A stretch of DNA of 44,287 nucleotides, from positions 1 through 44,287 of IMG/VR virus record IMGVR_UViG_3300032163_000298; one strand, written 5' to 3'. The translations under genes were made by a program, and so were the position numbers. Source of the DNA: a virus. This document shows positions 2,336 through 36,827 of the stretch, one piece after another. Within the stretch, counting starts at the first letter, position 1, and each line of letters opens with the position of its first letter. The notes under the pieces are model-generated. The model saw only the letters and a list, made by a program, of their open reading frames with translations. It did no database searches and was not told where the DNA came from.

Positions 2336-3196
2336 ATGAATCATACATTTAATCCTTCACCATTAAATACCGATAATTGTAGTATATGTCGGTATTCAGA
2401 ACATCAACACTCATCCGAAGCCATATGTGAAGCTTGTCCTAATGTCGGAGTAGTTGAACAATATAAGGGAATTAATGCCCCTGAAATGTTACTATGCCGA
2501 GAATGCATTGCCAAAGAAAAGGCTAGAGAACAAGATTTCATTGAATATGCATTAAAGTATCAGACTCCTGAATTACAAAATGAAAGACTTGAGACTCATC
2601 GAATGAATGAAGCATTGAAAGCGGCATCTAAGATAGATGAATCTGTAACTGTTACTACAGATTTATTCAATGCAAAGACTGTCGCAATTCTGGAATTAAA
2701 ATCCATTATTGACGCGGATCCTGAAATTGAAAACAAGAATTACAAGTTAGCTGAAATTTTAGCCGATAGACAGAAACATTTCTCGAAAATCATTTTTGAT
2801 AAGAATCAAGAATTGATTGAGGCTCATAATTCTCAGAAGGCTATTCAGTCCTATCTTAATACTCTCGCCAATAAACTCCATTCAGAAGAACGTGAGAAAC
2901 TCAAGTTACAAGATTTGAACTACAAGCCTGATACAACTAAGATTGCCAAACCAAAAGTCATTAAGACTGTTGGAACTGGTATGAAAAAAGAGTCTGTCGC
3001 TGAAGTTAGAAAAGCTTTGAATGAATTGAATAAAGAACTTGGAACTGATTTCCCAGAATTTGTTATTGCAACGATGATGTTAAGTAAGAAACTTTCATTA
3101 GAAGGTGCTATCAATAAACTTCGATTAATGACTAAAGAATCTAAGTCAATAGATAGAAAAGATGATGATGATACGCCTACTCCCGTTCTAGCATAG
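2336..3196 (+). CDS. Zinc-finger plus coiled-coil phage protein
   Basis: 286 residues, ATG behind AAAAGGAAAC. The N-terminal 60 residues carry CxxC-type pairs (CSIC near 16, CEAC near 31, CREC near 54), probably binding zinc. Residues 85-200 are long charged helices, followed by a basic linker and a helical C-terminal domain ending in an acidic tail. The position just before the helicase gene suggests a role in early DNA metabolism, but this is inference only. Confidence 0.7.
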   Translation: MNHTFNPSPLNTDNCSICRYSEHQHSSEAICEACPNVGVVEQYKGINAPEMLLCRECIAKEKAREQDFIEYALKYQTPELQNERLETHRMNEALKAASKIDESVTVTTDLFNAKTVAILELKSIIDADPEIENKNYKLAEILADRQKHFSKIIFDKNQELIEAHNSQKAIQSYLNTLANKLHSEEREKLKLQDLNYKPDTTKIAKPKVIKTVGTGMKKESVAEVRKALNELNKELGTDFPEFVIATMMLSKKLSLEGAINKLRLMTKESKSIDRKDDDDTPTPVLA

Positions 3197-3243: not shown

Positions 3244-3762
3244 ATGTGCCTACCAAATTTCAAAGAATTTCAGCAAATCGATAAATCAAATCCATTAATT
3301 GGATACAGAGTATGGCGCAATCCAATTCTCCCAAAATCACTGGATTTAATGGGTGAAAATAAAAATTATATTTGGGCATTAGATGAATCTATTAAAGGTC
3401 ATGAAGTCTTAAAAATTAATTCGGGTCTATACGCTTATAATAATTATAATTATAATAATTATAATAATTATAATAATAATTATAATTATTATTATAATTA
3501 TAATTATTATAGTTATTATTATAATTATAATTATTATTATTATACAGGAATTATTAAACAATGGGGCAAAACAGCTATTCATTTAACTGGACAGCGTTCT
3601 GAATTTGCTAAAATTGAAACTTTATTTACAATTAAAGAATCAGATATAACCAGAGATACGAAATTTATTAATTGGGTTAAAGAATTTAATAGACTAATAA
3701 TTGAAATCGCTAATAGGTATGAAGCTAATACTATTCATTGGCAGGATTTTTGTAAAATCTAA
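3244..3762 (+). CDS. GLYAY/WGK-type protein with a Tyr-Asn repeat insert
   Basis: 172 residues. The N-terminal part has GYRVWR (20-25) and the C-terminal half has QWGKTAIHLTGQRSEFAKI (106-124). I recall this pattern (GYRxW, GIYAY, LWG, GYRAEYA) from uncharacterised proteins of phages and actinobacteria; function unknown. Between the two, residues 65-100 consist only of Tyr and Asn with one Ser. The insert sits where the family has a loop of variable length, so the fold is probably intact. No overlap with neighbours. An unusually AT-rich gene. Confidence 0.75.
   Translation: MCLPNFKEFQQIDKSNPLIGYRVWRNPILPKSLDLMGENKNYIWALDESIKGHEVLKINSGLYAYNNYNYNNYNNYNNNYNYYYNYNYYSYYYNYNYYYYTGIIKQWGKTAIHLTGQRSEFAKIETLFTIKESDITRDTKFINWVKEFNRLIIEIANRYEANTIHWQDFCKI
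3436..3543 (+). repeat. TAT/AAT codon microsatellite inside a gene
   Basis: 108 bases made only of TAT and AAT codons except one AGT; one G in the whole stretch and no C. It keeps the frame because every unit is a codon. Slippage would change length by whole residues. Confidence 0.95.
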
Positions 3763-3805
3763 ATTAACAATTCATTAAAAATAAATAATAGAATGAGTGA
3801 AACGA

Positions 3806-5926
3806 ATGGAAAGAAATCAAGCAACTAAATTTCTTCGAGAAGAATTAGATAAGTATTCACTCCAATCATGGTCTATCAGACTATCAACTAATCCAAATGA
3901 TAATTTCTTAGGCATCTGTTTAGGAAAAGATAAGTGCATTATGTTAAATGCACATCACATTGGTATTCATCCCACTGAAGATGTAATCAATACCATTTTA
4001 CATGAAGTGGCACATGCTATTGTAGGGACTATACATCAACATGATGAAGTATGGGCTGCTAAGGCTAAAGAAATAGGTTGTACTAATACTTTACCATGTT
4101 CTCATCTTAGTTTAAGCCCTGCTATTATAGATGCAATTAGGTTAGGTCAATCTGTCAAAATTACATTCGAGGAAGAACATCATGTAATTCGTCGGCCTAA
4201 ATATGAAATTACTTTACAGGATAAATGTCCTGATTGTGGTAAGGTTGCAAAAGAACGATGGACTGTAGAAACTACTAATAAGAATGGTGATACAGTCAAA
4301 CTAATTACACTAGAATGTTTTCATGTAATTACTAAAGTAATCCCTCGCGGAACTAAATTTGAGGAATTAGTTAGTAATTGGTGGAAGCCTGAAATTGCAG
4401 CATGTAAGCATAAGTGGACTAAAACTCAATGTGATAATTGTGGCGAATACAGGCTAATGAAATTTCAAGTTGAAGCTTGTTTCTTTGCCGAAGGTGCAAT
4501 GGGTTCTAGTAAAGGTGTAGGACTATTCCATGATACTGGTTTAGGCAAGACAGTCATGGGATTAGGCTACATTCATTTCCATCCTGCTAGAACATTGTAT
4601 GTAGTTAAGTCTGCCATTAAATTCCAATGGTCTAAGCAGATTACAAAGTGGCTTGGACCTAAATTTATGGCTCAAATTATTGAAACTAGCCGAGATTATG
4701 TCTTTCCTAATCTCAATTCTTATATCATTAGTTATGACCTATTAAAGAGATTCAATAAAGAGAAATTAGCAGAACTAGACATTAAATATGTAGTTCTTGA
4801 TGAATGCCAACAAATTAGTAATCCAGATTCCAATAGAACACAGCAACTTAGGAAACTGGTCAATAATCAAGACATTAAAGTAATAGCTTTATCCGCTACA
4901 CCTTGGAAGAATCGGGGTTCTGAATTCTTCCCTATCTTAAACATACTCAATCCTACAAAGTTTTGGAGTTATCAACACTTCATTGATACTTGGATTGAAT
5001 ACTATTGGCATGGTGATAAAAGGAAAATGGGCGGCATTAAGAATGTTGCCAAATTTAAAGAGTATGTTGGAGATTTCATCATTCGCCGAGAATACAATGA
5101 AGTAATGGATGAATTTCCTGAAGTCAATCGCATGAAACTAAACATGCAGATGGACAATATCTTACAAGAACAATATGATGATGCTGAGGATGACTTTGTA
5201 AATTGGTATAATCAGTTTATTATTGATGGAACTGAAGGACAAGTCAATAGTATTCAAATATTAGCTCAACTTGCTAGGGCAAGACATATTGTTGGATTAG
5301 CTAAGATACCAGCTACAGTCGGATTTATTGAAGAATTTATTGATACTACAGATAGAAGTATCGTAGTCTTTGTTCATCATAAAGATGTTGGTATTCACCT
5401 ATTACAAGAATTGAAGAGAGTTCTTCCTTCTAATGTAGTAGTTGAATCTCTCACATCAGCTAATACAGATGAAGAAAAGAATAAAATTGCAGAAAGATTT
5501 GGAATTAGACAGACTGTATTAGTAGCATCAACACTTGCATGCGGCGAAGGTGTAGACGGATTACAGAAAGGATGCGATTCCATATTACATGAAAGACAAT
5601 GGAATCCAGCTAATGAAGACCAAGCTACACCGGGTAGATTTCGTAGAATTGGTCAAATGAGTAAGTCAGTTAATATCACTTGTGTTGAAGCTGATGGAAC
5701 CTGCGACCAAGATTTAGATGGAATTGTAGAACAGAAAAGACTTAGTTTCCATCAAACTATGAATAAGGGTGAAGCTCCATCATGGCGACAGGATGATATT
5801 GCGAAAGAACTTGCAAATAGAATTATTGAAAAACATAAATTGAAAAATAAAGGTAAAACTCCTAAATCCACTGTTAAGCCAGTAGTCAGTTCATTGATGG
5901 AGAATATCAATTATGAAATCCAATAA
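3806..5926 (+). CDS. SprT-like metalloprotease fused to SNF2-family helicase
   Basis: About 706 residues from ATG 3806 (GTG at 3797 would add three). Residues 60-95 contain HEVAHAI (66-72) and a third histidine at 79 in HDEVW, the SprT zinc-protease pattern. Two CxxC ribbons follow (CPDC near 141; CKHK/CDNC near 200-212), as in SprT zinc ribbons. From about 240 there is an SF2 helicase: DTGLGKT (Walker A), LDECQ (Walker B, not DEAH), SATPW (motif III) and QATPGRFRRIGQ (motif VI). SprT proteases cut proteins crosslinked to DNA and SNF2 enzymes move along duplex DNA. The fusion suggests removal of DNA-bound or crosslinked proteins during phage replication. The protease role is inferred. Confidence 0.85.
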   Translation: MERNQATKFLREELDKYSLQSWSIRLSTNPNDNFLGICLGKDKCIMLNAHHIGIHPTEDVINTILHEVAHAIVGTIHQHDEVWAAKAKEIGCTNTLPCSHLSLSPAIIDAIRLGQSVKITFEEEHHVIRRPKYEITLQDKCPDCGKVAKERWTVETTNKNGDTVKLITLECFHVITKVIPRGTKFEELVSNWWKPEIAACKHKWTKTQCDNCGEYRLMKFQVEACFFAEGAMGSSKGVGLFHDTGLGKTVMGLGYIHFHPARTLYVVKSAIKFQWSKQITKWLGPKFMAQIIETSRDYVFPNLNSYIISYDLLKRFNKEKLAELDIKYVVLDECQQISNPDSNRTQQLRKLVNNQDIKVIALSATPWKNRGSEFFPILNILNPTKFWSYQHFIDTWIEYYWHGDKRKMGGIKNVAKFKEYVGDFIIRREYNEVMDEFPEVNRMKLNMQMDNILQEQYDDAEDDFVNWYNQFIIDGTEGQVNSIQILAQLARARHIVGLAKIPATVGFIEEFIDTTDRSIVVFVHHKDVGIHLLQELKRVLPSNVVVESLTSANTDEEKNKIAERFGIRQTVLVASTLACGEGVDGLQKGCDSILHERQWNPANEDQATPGRFRRIGQMSKSVNITCVEADGTCDQDLDGIVEQKRLSFHQTMNKGEAPSWRQDDIAKELANRIIEKHKLKNKGKTPKSTVKPVVSSLMENINYEIQ

Positions 5927-6932: not shown

Positions 6933-7118
6933 ATGATAACTAATGTATATTTAAAATCGGAATCCAAGAAAGTTATACCATATCCAGACTGTTATCCAGT
7001 TATAACAGTTTTAATAGATAATTATAGAGAAATTAATATTTGTCCAAATAAACTTAGTGACTCTAAAGTAGCAACTTATATGTATGATTCAATTAGTAGA
7101 ATTGAGTTTAAGCCATGA
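6933..7118 (+). CDS. Small beta-rich protein, unknown
   Basis: 61 residues from ATG 6933 behind GGAAAC. Alternating strand pattern. Its stop overlaps the start of the nuclease gene (ATGA at 7115). Confidence 0.55.
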   Translation: MITNVYLKSESKKVIPYPDCYPVITVLIDNYREINICPNKLSDSKVATYMYDSISRIEFKP

Positions 7119-8065
7119 CTCAAAATGTAGTATTAGATGCAACCGTATTAACAAGTCTAATGAATTGTGCTCGATTCTCAGACCTTAGATTCAATCATCA
7201 TCTTGAATTAATCTCAGGTAAATCTAATTCATTAGAAATAGGTTCAGTTGTTCATAAATATTTGGAAATTAAATATAAATGTCTAATTAATGGCTTAGAT
7301 AAGCCTACTGCACATGGTATGGGCATGGCGGCCGCCGAATTATATGTAGCTGGCTGTCAATATTGTACTAACTTTGTATCAACTGATGAAATTCCTAAGC
7401 CCAAATGTAATCATTCGCCAAATGAATATCCCGGAATTCAAAATACTCCACCGGAATCTGCGGGATACTTAATTGGATGGAAATGGGCATTAACTACATG
7501 TGAACAATACAATGAATATTATAAGAATGACCATTGGGTATCTCTTGAAACTGAAGTAGTTAAGGGCAAAATCATTTATGAAGATGAAGATGTCCGTATT
7601 TTATGGAAAGCTAAGCTAGACTGGATAGTGGATACTAATCAAGGTATCTTCCCCGTTGACCATAAAACCATGAAACAAAATAGAGAAACTATTTCCACTA
7701 ATAATCAATTTATGGGTCAATGTCTTGTCATGGGAACACAATCCATGATTAAAAATAATATTGGATTTCAAAAGACTCTCAAGCCTGAAGAAAAGTTCAA
7801 ACGTGAAGTGATTAGTTATACTGAAGATAGGTTAGAGGAATGGCGTTCAATTATAGTACCATATTATGCTAAACTTCTTTTAATGTATCAGGAAACTGAT
7901 TTCTATCCACCAAATTTCAGTAATTGTGATGGTAAATTTGGTAAATGTCAATTTTATAAAGATGTTTGTTCAAACAATCGTAATATGAGAGAAGATGCTT
8001 TAAGAATGTATTTTAAAGTTGGGCAGGAATGGAATCCAACTAATGATACAGTTGAGGCTGAATGA
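7115..8065 (+). CDS. Cas4/RecB-like PD-(D/E)XK nuclease with Fe-S cysteines
   Basis: 316 residues. EIGSVVH (41-47) supplies the motif-I histidine. KLDW (Asp 169) and VDHKT (Asp 182, Lys 184) are the metal-binding and catalytic motifs, and Gln 198/Gln 202 could be motif QxxxY-like. Cys 18 together with Cys 271, 278 and 285 matches the four-cysteine iron-sulfur arrangement of Cas4/AddB exonucleases. Likely a DNA exonuclease for recombination or end processing, next to the Sak4-like ATPase. No cas1 or cas2 is present, so this is not a CRISPR component. Confidence 0.85.
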   Translation: MTQNVVLDATVLTSLMNCARFSDLRFNHHLELISGKSNSLEIGSVVHKYLEIKYKCLINGLDKPTAHGMGMAAAELYVAGCQYCTNFVSTDEIPKPKCNHSPNEYPGIQNTPPESAGYLIGWKWALTTCEQYNEYYKNDHWVSLETEVVKGKIIYEDEDVRILWKAKLDWIVDTNQGIFPVDHKTMKQNRETISTNNQFMGQCLVMGTQSMIKNNIGFQKTLKPEEKFKREVISYTEDRLEEWRSIIVPYYAKLLLMYQETDFYPPNFSNCDGKFGKCQFYKDVCSNNRNMREDALRMYFKVGQEWNPTNDTVEAE

Positions 8066-8507: not shown

Positions 8508-9299
8508 ATGCCAAACATGAGTAATGTGAATATTGACTCCTTATATTGTCTATTTAAAGGAGAACCTGGTACTAGGAAGTCTACAGCAGCTCTATCATTT
8601 CCAGGACCAATCTATTTTTTTGATTGGGATATGAAAATGGATGCTCTTAAATTACCAATGAGAGTATGGGGCGTAGACCCATCTAAAGTAGATTATGATT
8701 CATATCAAGATTGGGATAAAGCTCTTGCCAAACTTAAACAGTTTCAATTGAATTGCCCATATAAAACTATTGTAATTGATTCCATTACATCATGTGCCGA
8801 TGCAATTAATAGACAAACTCTTAAAATTAAGGGTGGCGAAGGTGCTGGTAAGAGAGTAGCCGGTATTCCAGTTAATGGTTTTGAAGATTTTAATGCTGAA
8901 GAATCTGCTCTTAAAGAATTAGTAGCATTAACTAAGGACATTAGAGATTACAATAAATGTAACGTAATCTTAATTGGTCATATTATTCAAAAAGATGTTA
9001 AAGATGCTCAGGGACAGACACATATGTCTCGCATTTTACTAACAGCGGGTAAAAGTATTGCCCAAAAGATTCCGGCCTATTGTAGTGAAATCTATCACTT
9101 CAATATTGAGAAAGGATTTGACGCAGATAAAGGCGGTCAATATGCATTGTTAACTACACATACAGGAGATGACTTCGCTCGCAGTTCACTTCCAATTCAA
9201 AGTAAGATTATATTTGGAAATGACCCTCTATATGACAAATGGATTAAACCTGCATTGGCGGATATCAATCAGGCTTATACCCCGGTAACTAAATTCTAA
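8508..9299 (+). CDS. Sak4-like RecA-fold ATPase
   Basis: 263 residues. Walker A GEPGTRKS (18-25); FFDWD next; Walker B TIVIDSIT (about 87-94); a motif-3-like segment NVILIGHI. Length and motif order fit the phage AAA_24/Sak4 group, single-domain RecA relatives that promote single-strand annealing with a dedicated ssDNA-binding protein. The next gene is a good candidate for that partner. The nuclease gene upstream completes a plausible recombination module. Confidence 0.85.
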   Translation: MPNMSNVNIDSLYCLFKGEPGTRKSTAALSFPGPIYFFDWDMKMDALKLPMRVWGVDPSKVDYDSYQDWDKALAKLKQFQLNCPYKTIVIDSITSCADAINRQTLKIKGGEGAGKRVAGIPVNGFEDFNAEESALKELVALTKDIRDYNKCNVILIGHIIQKDVKDAQGQTHMSRILLTAGKSIAQKIPAYCSEIYHFNIEKGFDADKGGQYALLTTHTGDDFARSSLPIQSKIIFGNDPLYDKWIKPALADINQAYTPVTKF

Positions 9300-11027: not shown

Positions 11028-11206
11028 TGGACATCAAATGTTATTCATGTGATAAGCCATTAACTAGAGATGAAGCATATGAATGTTCAAATGAATGTTT
11101 TGAATGTGAAATTAATCGTTTAGTTTGGCGACTTTGTAGAAATGTATTAAAGGGTCGATTAACATTCAGTCGACTTCAAACTAAGATTGCAGCTCATTTA
11201 GGATAA
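11027..11206 (+). CDS. Small cysteine-rich zinc protein
   Basis: 59 residues between TAATG overlaps on both sides. CYSC (5-8), CSNEC (20-24) and CEIN imply zinc binding, followed by a basic helix (RLVWRLCRNVLKGRLTFSRL). Directly coupled to the DNA polymerase gene, so probably a replication accessory. Confidence 0.6.
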   Translation: MDIKCYSCDKPLTRDEAYECSNECFECEINRLVWRLCRNVLKGRLTFSRLQTKIAAHLG

Positions 11207-13815
11207 TGGATAAAAAGTATATAGCAGGTAGAGGCCCATTAGGGGCTAAAATAATGATTGTATGTGAATGTCCCACATATGAGGATATACAATCAGGGAA
11301 ATTATTTACTAAATCTAGAGAACTAGACCAACTGTTAAGAGAAAATGGAGTTAATAAAGAATCATGTTGGCTAACAGCAGTTAGTAAATATCATGTAACT
11401 CCCAATTCTGGTAAGAAAAAAATACCATTCGCCATTCGAGCTAAAAATGAAGGTATAGACGTTCATCAGCAGATAATGGAATTACAAAATGAGGTTAATT
11501 CAATTGAACCTAATGTAATTCTAGGAGTTGGTAAAACTGCATTATGGGCAATGACGGGTAAAACTGATATAAGTAAATTCAGAGGTAGTATATTACTTGG
11601 AATGGGACGTAAGTTTGTTCCAACATACAATCCAGAACATCTTAGTTGGCAAGCCTCTGATGTTGAGTTTAAAGGCTATTGGAATAAACAAATAATTGCA
11701 TTTGATATTAAAAGAGCCTTAAGTCAATCGGGATTTCCTGAAAGAAATATACCCAATCGAATATTACAAATAGCCAAATCATCATATGACTTATCTCAAT
11801 ACATCGACCGATGGAAATCAAAGACTAGAATGGCGGTTGATATTGAAGCCGGGGGACATTTCCTTCCCATATGTATTGGAATATCTTTTGATAAAAGTCA
11901 TGGAATCACAGCCCCTTTATGGAATAGAGACAGTATATCAAATATACCAGATTCAGATTTAGTTCAATGTTGGATTTTACTCTCAGAATTATTAGCAACT
12001 AAAGAAATTGTAGGTCAAAATTTTAATTATGACCGAGATAAGATTAAAAGACTCGGATTCGTAGTTCGGAATTTTGTTAGTGATACAATGCTTAAGGCTA
12101 TGGCATTAGACCCAGAATGGCCCAAAGGATTAGCATTTAATCAATCTATTTATACTGAAGAACCTTTCTATAAAGATGAGGGAATGTATCAAGGTTCTAT
12201 TCAAGACTTACTTACAGGTTGTGCGAGGGATGCATGTGTAACTCTTGAAATAGATGAAAATATGGAACCTTTATTAATCCAACTAAATCAAAAAAAGTTC
12301 TATGAAAACTTTCTTATGCGTCTACCTGACCTATATTGGGGTATAGAACAACAGGGATTCAATATTGATGGTATTGCAAGAGATGCATTAATGCAAAAAT
12401 ATATTGCATGGGATGAACGCATTCGATATGACTTATTTAAATTAATAGGAACAGAAGTTAATGTAAATTCACCTAAACAAGTAAGTACATTACTATATGA
12501 TAATTTTAAACTTCCTCCACGTAAGGGAACAAGTGAAGAAGATTTAACTGATTTATTGAATCTCCAATCATTAGAAAAGCATTGGAATAAAAATGAAAAT
12601 CATAGGAAAGTTATTGAACTCATCTTGGAAGGTAGGCGTGTACGCAAAAGTATATCTACGTATCTTATGGCTATGCCTGATTTTGATGGCCGAATGCGTA
12701 CAACTTATTTCCCATGCTTGGAAACTGGTCGTTCGTCAACTGGACAGCAAGACCCTCCTATACGCCCTACTGTCGATGTTATTGATGAGACTGGAAAAAA
12801 GAAAACGAGAGTATTAGGCACAGCTTTCCAAACAATGACTAAACATGGAGATATTGGACAAGATGTTCGTTCAATGTATATACCAGATAGTGAAGATGAA
12901 ATATTTGTACAAGCTGACTCAGCACAGGCAGAGGCAAGAATTATCTTCTTACTAGCAGATGATGAGCAAGCATTAGAGGATATAGAAACTCATGACTATC
13001 ATGCACTTACAGCTTCATGGTTTTTCGGGGGAACTGAAGATGATTATTCAAAAAAGAAATTGGGTTACGAAAGCCCTATTCGATTTGCTGGTAAAACACT
13101 TAGGCATGCAGGTCATCTTGGAGCAGGCAAACGTAGGGCGGCAATTAGTGTCAATACAGACGCCCGAAAATATAAAATTCCAATTGTAATTACGGAATCA
13201 ATTGCCGAGCGTGCATTAAAAATCTTTCATAGTAAACAACCTAAAATACAAGGTATTTTCCATAAATCAATTATAGACCAGCTTTCAAAGAATAGGCAAT
13301 TATATGCTCCGGTCCCGTTCGGAATTGACGCCCCTATTGGAGGGATTAGAACTTGTTATGAACGATGGGGAGATGAACTTAACAGACAAGCCTTTAGTTA
13401 TATACCACAACGGTCAATTTCTGATAACACTAAGGGTGCCGGAATTAGGATTAAAGAACGAATACCTTCAATTAAAATTACTATGGAATCCCATGACTCA
13501 CTCTTATTCTGTATTCCTAAGTCAAAACTTTCGGAATATGCTCCTATCATTAAACAGGAATTTGAGCGCCCAATTGATTTTAGGACTTGTGTTATTCGCA
13601 GAAGACCAATTGTTATTCCATGCGAACTCGAAATAGGTACTAACTACCAAGAATTTTCGAAATACAAATTTATGACTCCAACTGATAATAGAATTATAGT
13701 ACCCAAAATGGTTCCTAAGACGCCGAATGAAGAATTTACAGCCCCTCCTATTGGGGGAGATTCTAAATTAACTGATATTATATATAATGAGCAAATAAGA
13801 AAGTTGGGATTATGA
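11206..13815 (+). CDS. polA: UDG-like domain fused to family A DNA polymerase
   Basis: 869 residues. Residues 1-170 match the family 4 uracil-DNA glycosylase layout: GRGPLGAKIMIV (8-19), a PTYED element in place of GEAPGxxED (23-27), LGVGKTAL and TYNPEHL (140-146, usual HPS/HPA histidine replaced by Asn). Residues 205-350 are a 3'-5' exonuclease: DIE (212-214), NFNYD (272-276) and RDA (341-343). The polymerase follows with motif A DSAQAEAR (570-577), motif B around K629 and HAGHLGAG (633-640), and motif C SHDS (761-764). The O-helix positions usually Phe762 and Tyr766 (E. coli) read His and Leu. Main replicative polymerase. Confidence 0.9.
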   Translation: MDKKYIAGRGPLGAKIMIVCECPTYEDIQSGKLFTKSRELDQLLRENGVNKESCWLTAVSKYHVTPNSGKKKIPFAIRAKNEGIDVHQQIMELQNEVNSIEPNVILGVGKTALWAMTGKTDISKFRGSILLGMGRKFVPTYNPEHLSWQASDVEFKGYWNKQIIAFDIKRALSQSGFPERNIPNRILQIAKSSYDLSQYIDRWKSKTRMAVDIEAGGHFLPICIGISFDKSHGITAPLWNRDSISNIPDSDLVQCWILLSELLATKEIVGQNFNYDRDKIKRLGFVVRNFVSDTMLKAMALDPEWPKGLAFNQSIYTEEPFYKDEGMYQGSIQDLLTGCARDACVTLEIDENMEPLLIQLNQKKFYENFLMRLPDLYWGIEQQGFNIDGIARDALMQKYIAWDERIRYDLFKLIGTEVNVNSPKQVSTLLYDNFKLPPRKGTSEEDLTDLLNLQSLEKHWNKNENHRKVIELILEGRRVRKSISTYLMAMPDFDGRMRTTYFPCLETGRSSTGQQDPPIRPTVDVIDETGKKKTRVLGTAFQTMTKHGDIGQDVRSMYIPDSEDEIFVQADSAQAEARIIFLLADDEQALEDIETHDYHALTASWFFGGTEDDYSKKKLGYESPIRFAGKTLRHAGHLGAGKRRAAISVNTDARKYKIPIVITESIAERALKIFHSKQPKIQGIFHKSIIDQLSKNRQLYAPVPFGIDAPIGGIRTCYERWGDELNRQAFSYIPQRSISDNTKGAGIRIKERIPSIKITMESHDSLLFCIPKSKLSEYAPIIKQEFERPIDFRTCVIRRRPIVIPCELEIGTNYQEFSKYKFMTPTDNRIIVPKMVPKTPNEEFTAPPIGGDSKLTDIIYNEQIRKLGL

Positions 13816-36332: not shown

Positions 36333-36827
36333 TTACTTTCGAGCTAATAATATTGGTTTCTTAGGTTGTTGAGTTGCTTGTATGGGTGCCCGTAATTCAA
36401 TATCACCCCGACGTATGGGACGCATAGCTTCTGCATTAATAGCTTCATTCTCAACTTTATCAGGCTCAGTAAAGCTACGTAACCATCCCCTACCACCCTG
36501 ATTAACATGAGTCATTTCATGTGCTAATACGTCCCCTAAATCTTGTTTTTCACCTTCAATTAGTTGTCTATTTAATGCAATAGTTCCCAATGGACTAGTT
36601 GATGCATACGCATTTGGATTTAGTTGTCTTTGTAACCAACCCATTTCACCAATACGATTTACTTTAGAAGCTGGCCCAGGCATTTCAATCTGTCTACCAG
36701 CCCACTGTTTCTCCAATTCAGGCCAACTAGCCTTAGTTCTATCGGATACTGCATCACCTAATAATTGACGCAGCAAACCGGGAGAAGGTGTTGTGCTGTG
36801 ATTAGGCTTCTGTTCTGGTGTTGGCAT
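36333..36827 (-). CDS. HExxH metallopeptidase-like protein
   Basis: 164 residues. A proline-rich N-terminus, then LGTIALNRQLIEGEKQDLGD and HEMTH (103-107), followed by ENEAINAEAM (127-136), a possible third zinc ligand. Pattern matches gluzincin-type peptidases or inactive relatives. Between terminase and portal it could process the prohead or be packaged in the virion. It overlaps the upstream gene by 26 bases. Confidence 0.7.
   Translation of the reverse strand: MPTPEQKPNHSTTPSPGLLRQLLGDAVSDRTKASWPELEKQWAGRQIEMPGPASKVNRIGEMGWLQRQLNPNAYASTSPLGTIALNRQLIEGEKQDLGDVLAHEMTHVNQGGRGWLRSFTEPDKVENEAINAEAMRPIRRGDIELRAPIQATQQPKKPILLARK

Follow-up and report, generated by a model that had tools for sequence, protein, structure and literature searches.

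The window analysed here, a virus record from IMG/VR of 44.3 kb (44 287 nucleotides), carries its terminase and head genes on the minus strand and its replication genes on the plus strand. Among the latter we found a single open reading frame that runs without a frameshift from an ATG at 3806 to the end of a stop codon at 5926, and whose 706-amino-acid product combines a SprT-like metalloprotease domain with an SNF2 helicase. The mechanically defined reading frame begins at a GTG at 3797; homologues have residues M1 and R3 of the ATG start in common. The features of the locus are as follows, with Pfam and PHROGs matches given as E-values.

2336–3196, plus strand: conserved upstream gene, 286 amino acids, no family match; present in 77/77 testable fused loci
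3806–5926, plus strand: SprT–SNF2 fusion gene, 706 amino acids, stop codon included
3806–4150, plus strand: SprT-like metalloprotease domain, residues 1–115 (PF10263, 1.9e-9 over residues 16–95; phrog_1006, 5.6e-18)
4001–4015, plus strand: HEVAH, residues 66–70, two zinc-binding His and the catalytic Glu as assigned from the family; invariant in 91/91 representatives
4040–4042, plus strand: H79, predicted third zinc ligand; invariant in 91/91
4151–4213, plus strand: linker, residues 116–136, a beta hairpin of lower pLDDT in the model
4214–4330, plus strand: zinc ribbon 1, helicase-associated (C141, C144, C171, H173); invariant in 100/100 alignment rows
4397–4447, plus strand: zinc ribbon 2, helicase-associated (C200, H202, C209, C212); kept in 90/91 fused representatives and in SprT-less relatives
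4451–5845, plus strand: SNF2 helicase/ATPase core, residues 216–680 (PF00176, 3.1e-26; Sulfolobus structure 1z63, 4.7e-23; modelled part matching SNF2 motors with VIA-align Z up to 23.6)
4538–4552, plus strand: Walker A, GLGKT, residues 245–249; K248 invariant in 91/91
4799–4810, plus strand: Walker B, DECQ, residues 332–335; D, E and Q invariant, third residue C or V
5846–5923, plus strand: variable C-terminal tail, residues 681–706 (mean pairwise identity 0.21; dN/dS 0.55)
7115–8065, plus strand: Cas4/RecB-like exonuclease (phrog_1218, 9.2e-7); in 49/49 testable fused loci
8508–9299, plus strand: Sak4-like single-strand annealing ATPase (phrog_124, 2.5e-22); in 43/49 testable fused loci
11206–13815, plus strand: DNA polymerase I with an N-terminal UDG domain (PF00476, 2e-27; PF03167, 3.5e-12)

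The fusion gene belongs to a replication/recombination module. A 142-amino-acid protein was encoded near it in 38 of the 49 testable fused loci, and a DUF3987 protein matching phage DNA primases and a DHH phosphoesterase lie further along the window. The gene at 2336–3196 is a candidate partner of the fusion. UDG makes abasic sites, which are a source of DNA–protein crosslinks; since a UDG match was found in all 29 related records (mostly in polymerase-sized reading frames), including four that have no SprT domain, the protease appears unlinked to the UDG-polymerase. The reading frame directly upstream of the fusion (3244–3762) contains a long low-complexity Asn/Tyr run (NYNNYNNNYNYYYNYN...) and had no family match. 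A second HExxH protein (HEMTH; 36333–36827, minus strand), with a weak Peptidase_M48 match (8.3e-5), adjoins the terminase gene in the structural region.

Protease domain, zinc ribbons and motor

The first-pass annotation, made from the sequence alone, had described a SprT-type protease joined to a complete SNF2 helicase core in a phage, and both Pfam domains were indeed recovered on one open chain. The SprT-like match scored 37.8 bits against a curated cut-off of 25.6, PF10263 matched seven of seven family members tested at E ≤ 0.01, and phrog_1006, which the N-terminus also matched, is a family of stand-alone phage SprT proteins. The HExxH motif lies where it had been read, with a third His nine residues after H70. 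Among 91 representatives (fused proteins at < 95% identity), H66, E67, H70, H79 and W83 were identical throughout, a conservation that rules out a chance HExxH motif. Median dN/dS (Nei–Gojobori, 17 close pairs) was 0.095 for the SprT domain, 0.079 for the linker, 0.102 for the ribbons, 0.081 for the helicase and 0.546 for the tail; the protease thus seems to be constrained about as strongly as the motor, and the ratios point to purifying selection on the one as on the other.

An AlphaFold2 model built on a 100-row alignment reached a mean pLDDT of 87.1 and a pTM of 0.78 (pLDDT 56 with seven sequences only). It placed the HExxH motif in a helix spanning residues 57–73 and H79 immediately ahead of a second helix (81–89), within a SprT domain modelled at high pLDDT up to about residue 90. 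A structure model had been suggested as a check on the zinc site, and the check was borne out in part, namely for the HExxH helix and the position of the third His, both placed at high confidence. When the whole model was used in fold searches, the matches listed were helicases only. A seven-row SprT profile compared with solved structures retrieved SPRTN (6mdx/6mdw) and Wss1 (5xbn, E 0.32), and a 67-row profile retrieved projannalysin, SPRTN and MJ1213, all of them weakly (E 0.018–0.026 for SPRTN 6mdx; 0.005–0.03 for the best match of any structure), so that it is Pfam, PHROGs and the motif that carry the SprT assignment.

The region beyond the SprT domain matched the DNA helicase family phrog_62 (1e-62) and has the features of an SNF2-type SF2 enzyme, with the PF00176 match and conserved Walker A, Walker B and motif VI; K248, D332, E333 and Q335 as well as R611 and R614 of motif VI were identical in all 91 representatives. 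The Walker B sequence DECQ had been singled out as a departure from DEAH. It is ordinary for the family, where 78 of the 91 have C at the third position and 13 have V, and 1z63 reads DEAQ. CSB-type structures occurred among the fold matches, scoring no better than many remodellers. Membership of a defence system was considered and rejected: PADLOC and NCBIfam matches to ZorD, DpdE and DrmD reflect the shared SNF2 core only, and the NCBIfam matches fell far under cut-off.

The zinc ribbons that had been noted ahead of the helicase core both exist and follow SprT in the chain, but they appear to belong to the helicase and not to the SprT unit, though they might serve both. The invariance of the four ribbon 1 ligands extends to rows of SprT-less helicases, among them distant ones (L007–L010), and because SprT-less homologues retain the ribbons we regard these as helicase parts that had SprT added in front of them.

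Distribution of the fusion and its protease-less relatives

The same fusion had been proposed as something to look for in other phages, and scans of IMG/VR recovered it widely among uncultured phages: at least 138 complete fused reading frames, the window included, which represent at least 98 distinct proteins and form at least 91 clusters at 95% and at least 72 at 80% identity. The true number of fused proteins is probably higher. An open reading frame in at least 98 distinct proteins rules out an assembly artefact or a frameshift between the two parts, the latter having been named beforehand as a result that would speak against the fusion. No record covering 80% of the fusion protein was found among 50 697 annotated phage records or 72 556 plasmid records. 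The query matched 534 of the annotated phage records, through the helicase part among the matches listed, and a SprT match was present in 862. A single pattern scan across bacterial and archaeal genomes turned up no fusion. In the open-access literature, phage SprT and phage SNF2 proteins are described separately and the SprT–SNF2 fusion is not; the combination may already be catalogued somewhere, for example among InterPro architectures.

Five relatives (L057, L058, L061, L067 and L091) encode a helicase 54–59% identical to that of the window and no protease. Their helicase starts just ahead of ribbon 1, with both ribbons intact, and the gene order is kept, with the same upstream gene and the Cas4-like, Sak4 and 142-amino-acid neighbours. 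A sixth record (L068), whose helicase begins at a contig edge, was left out of this count. Searches with the family alignment, PF10263 and phrog_1006 found no SprT elsewhere in the SprT-less records, which are possibly incomplete (two are short fragments of 10 and 16 kb). In a tree of the helicase part only (residues 137 onwards) the SprT-less relatives were nested inside the fused group, and SprT presence changed six times, at least four of these changes being forced by starred branches. A single loss, with the five relatives as one clade, was rejected on a 37-row tree (AU p = 0.0023). Together, the five close relatives and this rejection mark the protease as a detachable, optional module. 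The simplest reading of the tree is that SprT was gained once, no later than the base of the group, and then lost two or more times; regain or exchange through recombination is possible.

Each half has counterparts elsewhere. The stand-alone SprTs of mycobacteriophages, Klebsiella T4-like phages and Streptomyces phages (phrog_1006) share the protease core at about 30–40% identity (motif HEIAHALVG...HGHDAVW) and are single-domain genes of about 145–200 amino acids; those of Alberto7 (gp82) and Nodigi have, unlike the fusion, a short Cys-rich C-terminal tail of their own. None of the four stand-alone SprT regions examined had an annotated SNF2 gene adjoining SprT. In Klebsiella phage phi1_146002 (PP889458.1, L168 2950–3492), a 180-amino-acid SprT-like reading frame without a helicase adjoins topoisomerase II genes and is annotated as ‘DNA helicase’, apparently a misannotation. 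Phage SNF2-type helicases of the phrog_62 type (L007, L008 and L010) have the same motor and the first N-terminal ribbon but no protease domain, and Cas4-like and Sak4 genes neighbour them in both loci with enough flank. The Sulfolobus SNF2 core and eukaryotic remodellers likewise share the motor fold and motifs, without SprT and with other accessory domains.

With SPRTN and Wss1 the fusion has in common the HExxH motif, the third His and the SprT-like Pfam family, although structure matches were weak. SPRTN lacks a motor, for which it borrows FANCJ or p97, and has ubiquitin and PCNA motifs together with a zinc-binding subdomain of its own; the fusion carries a motor in the same chain and its ribbons are helicase parts. 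The plasmid antirestriction protein ArdC joins a DNA-binding part to a SPRTN-like metalloprotease domain that is dispensable for its function (PMC7213743); it has a ssDNA-binding domain where the fusion has a motor, and its third ligand is Glu, not His.

A possible role on obstructed phage DNA

We favour, at about even odds, a reading in which the phage uses one enzyme with two functions to keep its DNA free of protein obstacles while it is replicated and recombined. To judge by its family, the SNF2 motor, to which the zinc ribbons belong, would bind and move along dsDNA or at forks. Where phage DNA is blocked by a protein that is tightly bound or attached through a covalent crosslink, the motor would displace or partly unfold that protein and so bring it to the protease; the tethered SprT domain, predicted to be zinc-dependent from its HExxH and third His, would cut the exposed polypeptide, and the phage polymerase and recombinase could then pass. 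We infer that SprT is an active, DNA-dependent protease coupled to the motor, and likewise the order in which the two act and their substrate. In favour of obstacle clearing are the fusion itself, its broad conservation, catalytic residues that never vary in either part, purifying selection on the protease and the gene context. Such a role would fit the replication and recombination neighbours and, by analogy, SPRTN's need for an unfolding helicase: in vitro, a crosslinked protein is open to cutting by SPRTN once FANCJ has translocated into it and unfolded it, a step that SPRTN requires (PMC12279946). With motor and SprT in one chain, both FANCJ-like unfolding and cutting could be supplied.

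Several points count against obstacle clearing. A SPRTN-type DNA-binding zinc subdomain is not clearly present in the fusion. Among SNF2 proteins there are many that translocate but do not unfold clients. A protease of low specificity would have to be gated, and no gating mechanism is visible in the fusion. Two or more lineages independently lost the protease while retaining the helicase, so that not every host requires proteolysis for the motor to do its job.

We hold more tentatively, and on balance doubt, the narrower proposal of a self-contained crosslink-repair machine, with motor and protease in one phage protein, that is a detachable module of a large uncultured group. In animals, unfolding and cutting take two proteins, SPRTN and either FANCJ or p97. 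What is understood of crosslink proteases comes from eukaryotes, in which motor and protease are separate proteins. If true, having both in a single phage chain would offer a simple setting in which to test whether a motor feeds proteins to SprT, for which the relatives that have and lack the protease in the same gene order are natural matched pairs; it would also suggest that phage replication is under real selective pressure from blocked DNA.

The same architecture could serve other ends. The motor might take SprT to phage DNA in order to destroy particular host proteins, whether nucleoid, repressor or defence proteins. Cleavage of host proteins has been proposed for the stand-alone SprTs of jumbo phages from their patchy distribution and copy number (PMC7824862), and the repeated absence of the module in one clade would fit host-specific targets; yet the domain is stable and constrained in most of the group, the gene sits inside a replication/recombination module, and the antirestriction function of ArdC does not need its protease (PMC7213743), so we consider an anti-host role unlikely. 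Distinctly less probable is that SprT cleaves the fusion itself or a phage replication protein as a maturation or shut-off step. SPRTN and Wss1 do self-cleave in trans when DNA is present (reviewed in PMC7782752) and the protease is a removable part of the protein, but a self-limiting role alone would not explain constraint across the whole domain.

Slightly less credible again is a motor like RapA or CSB that strips stalled RNA polymerase from the path of the phage replisome for SprT to degrade. One published proposal treats phage SNF2 enzymes as equivalents of RapA (PMC7824862) and CSB-type folds were matched, though, as above, no better than many remodellers, and the genes around the fusion serve replication and recombination, none of them noted as an RNA polymerase gene. 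It is very improbable that SprT acts as a non-catalytic adaptor or DNA-binding module: its catalytic activity is a prediction and the helicase of some relatives works without it, but none of the 91 representatives departs from the catalytic E67 or from any of the three His.
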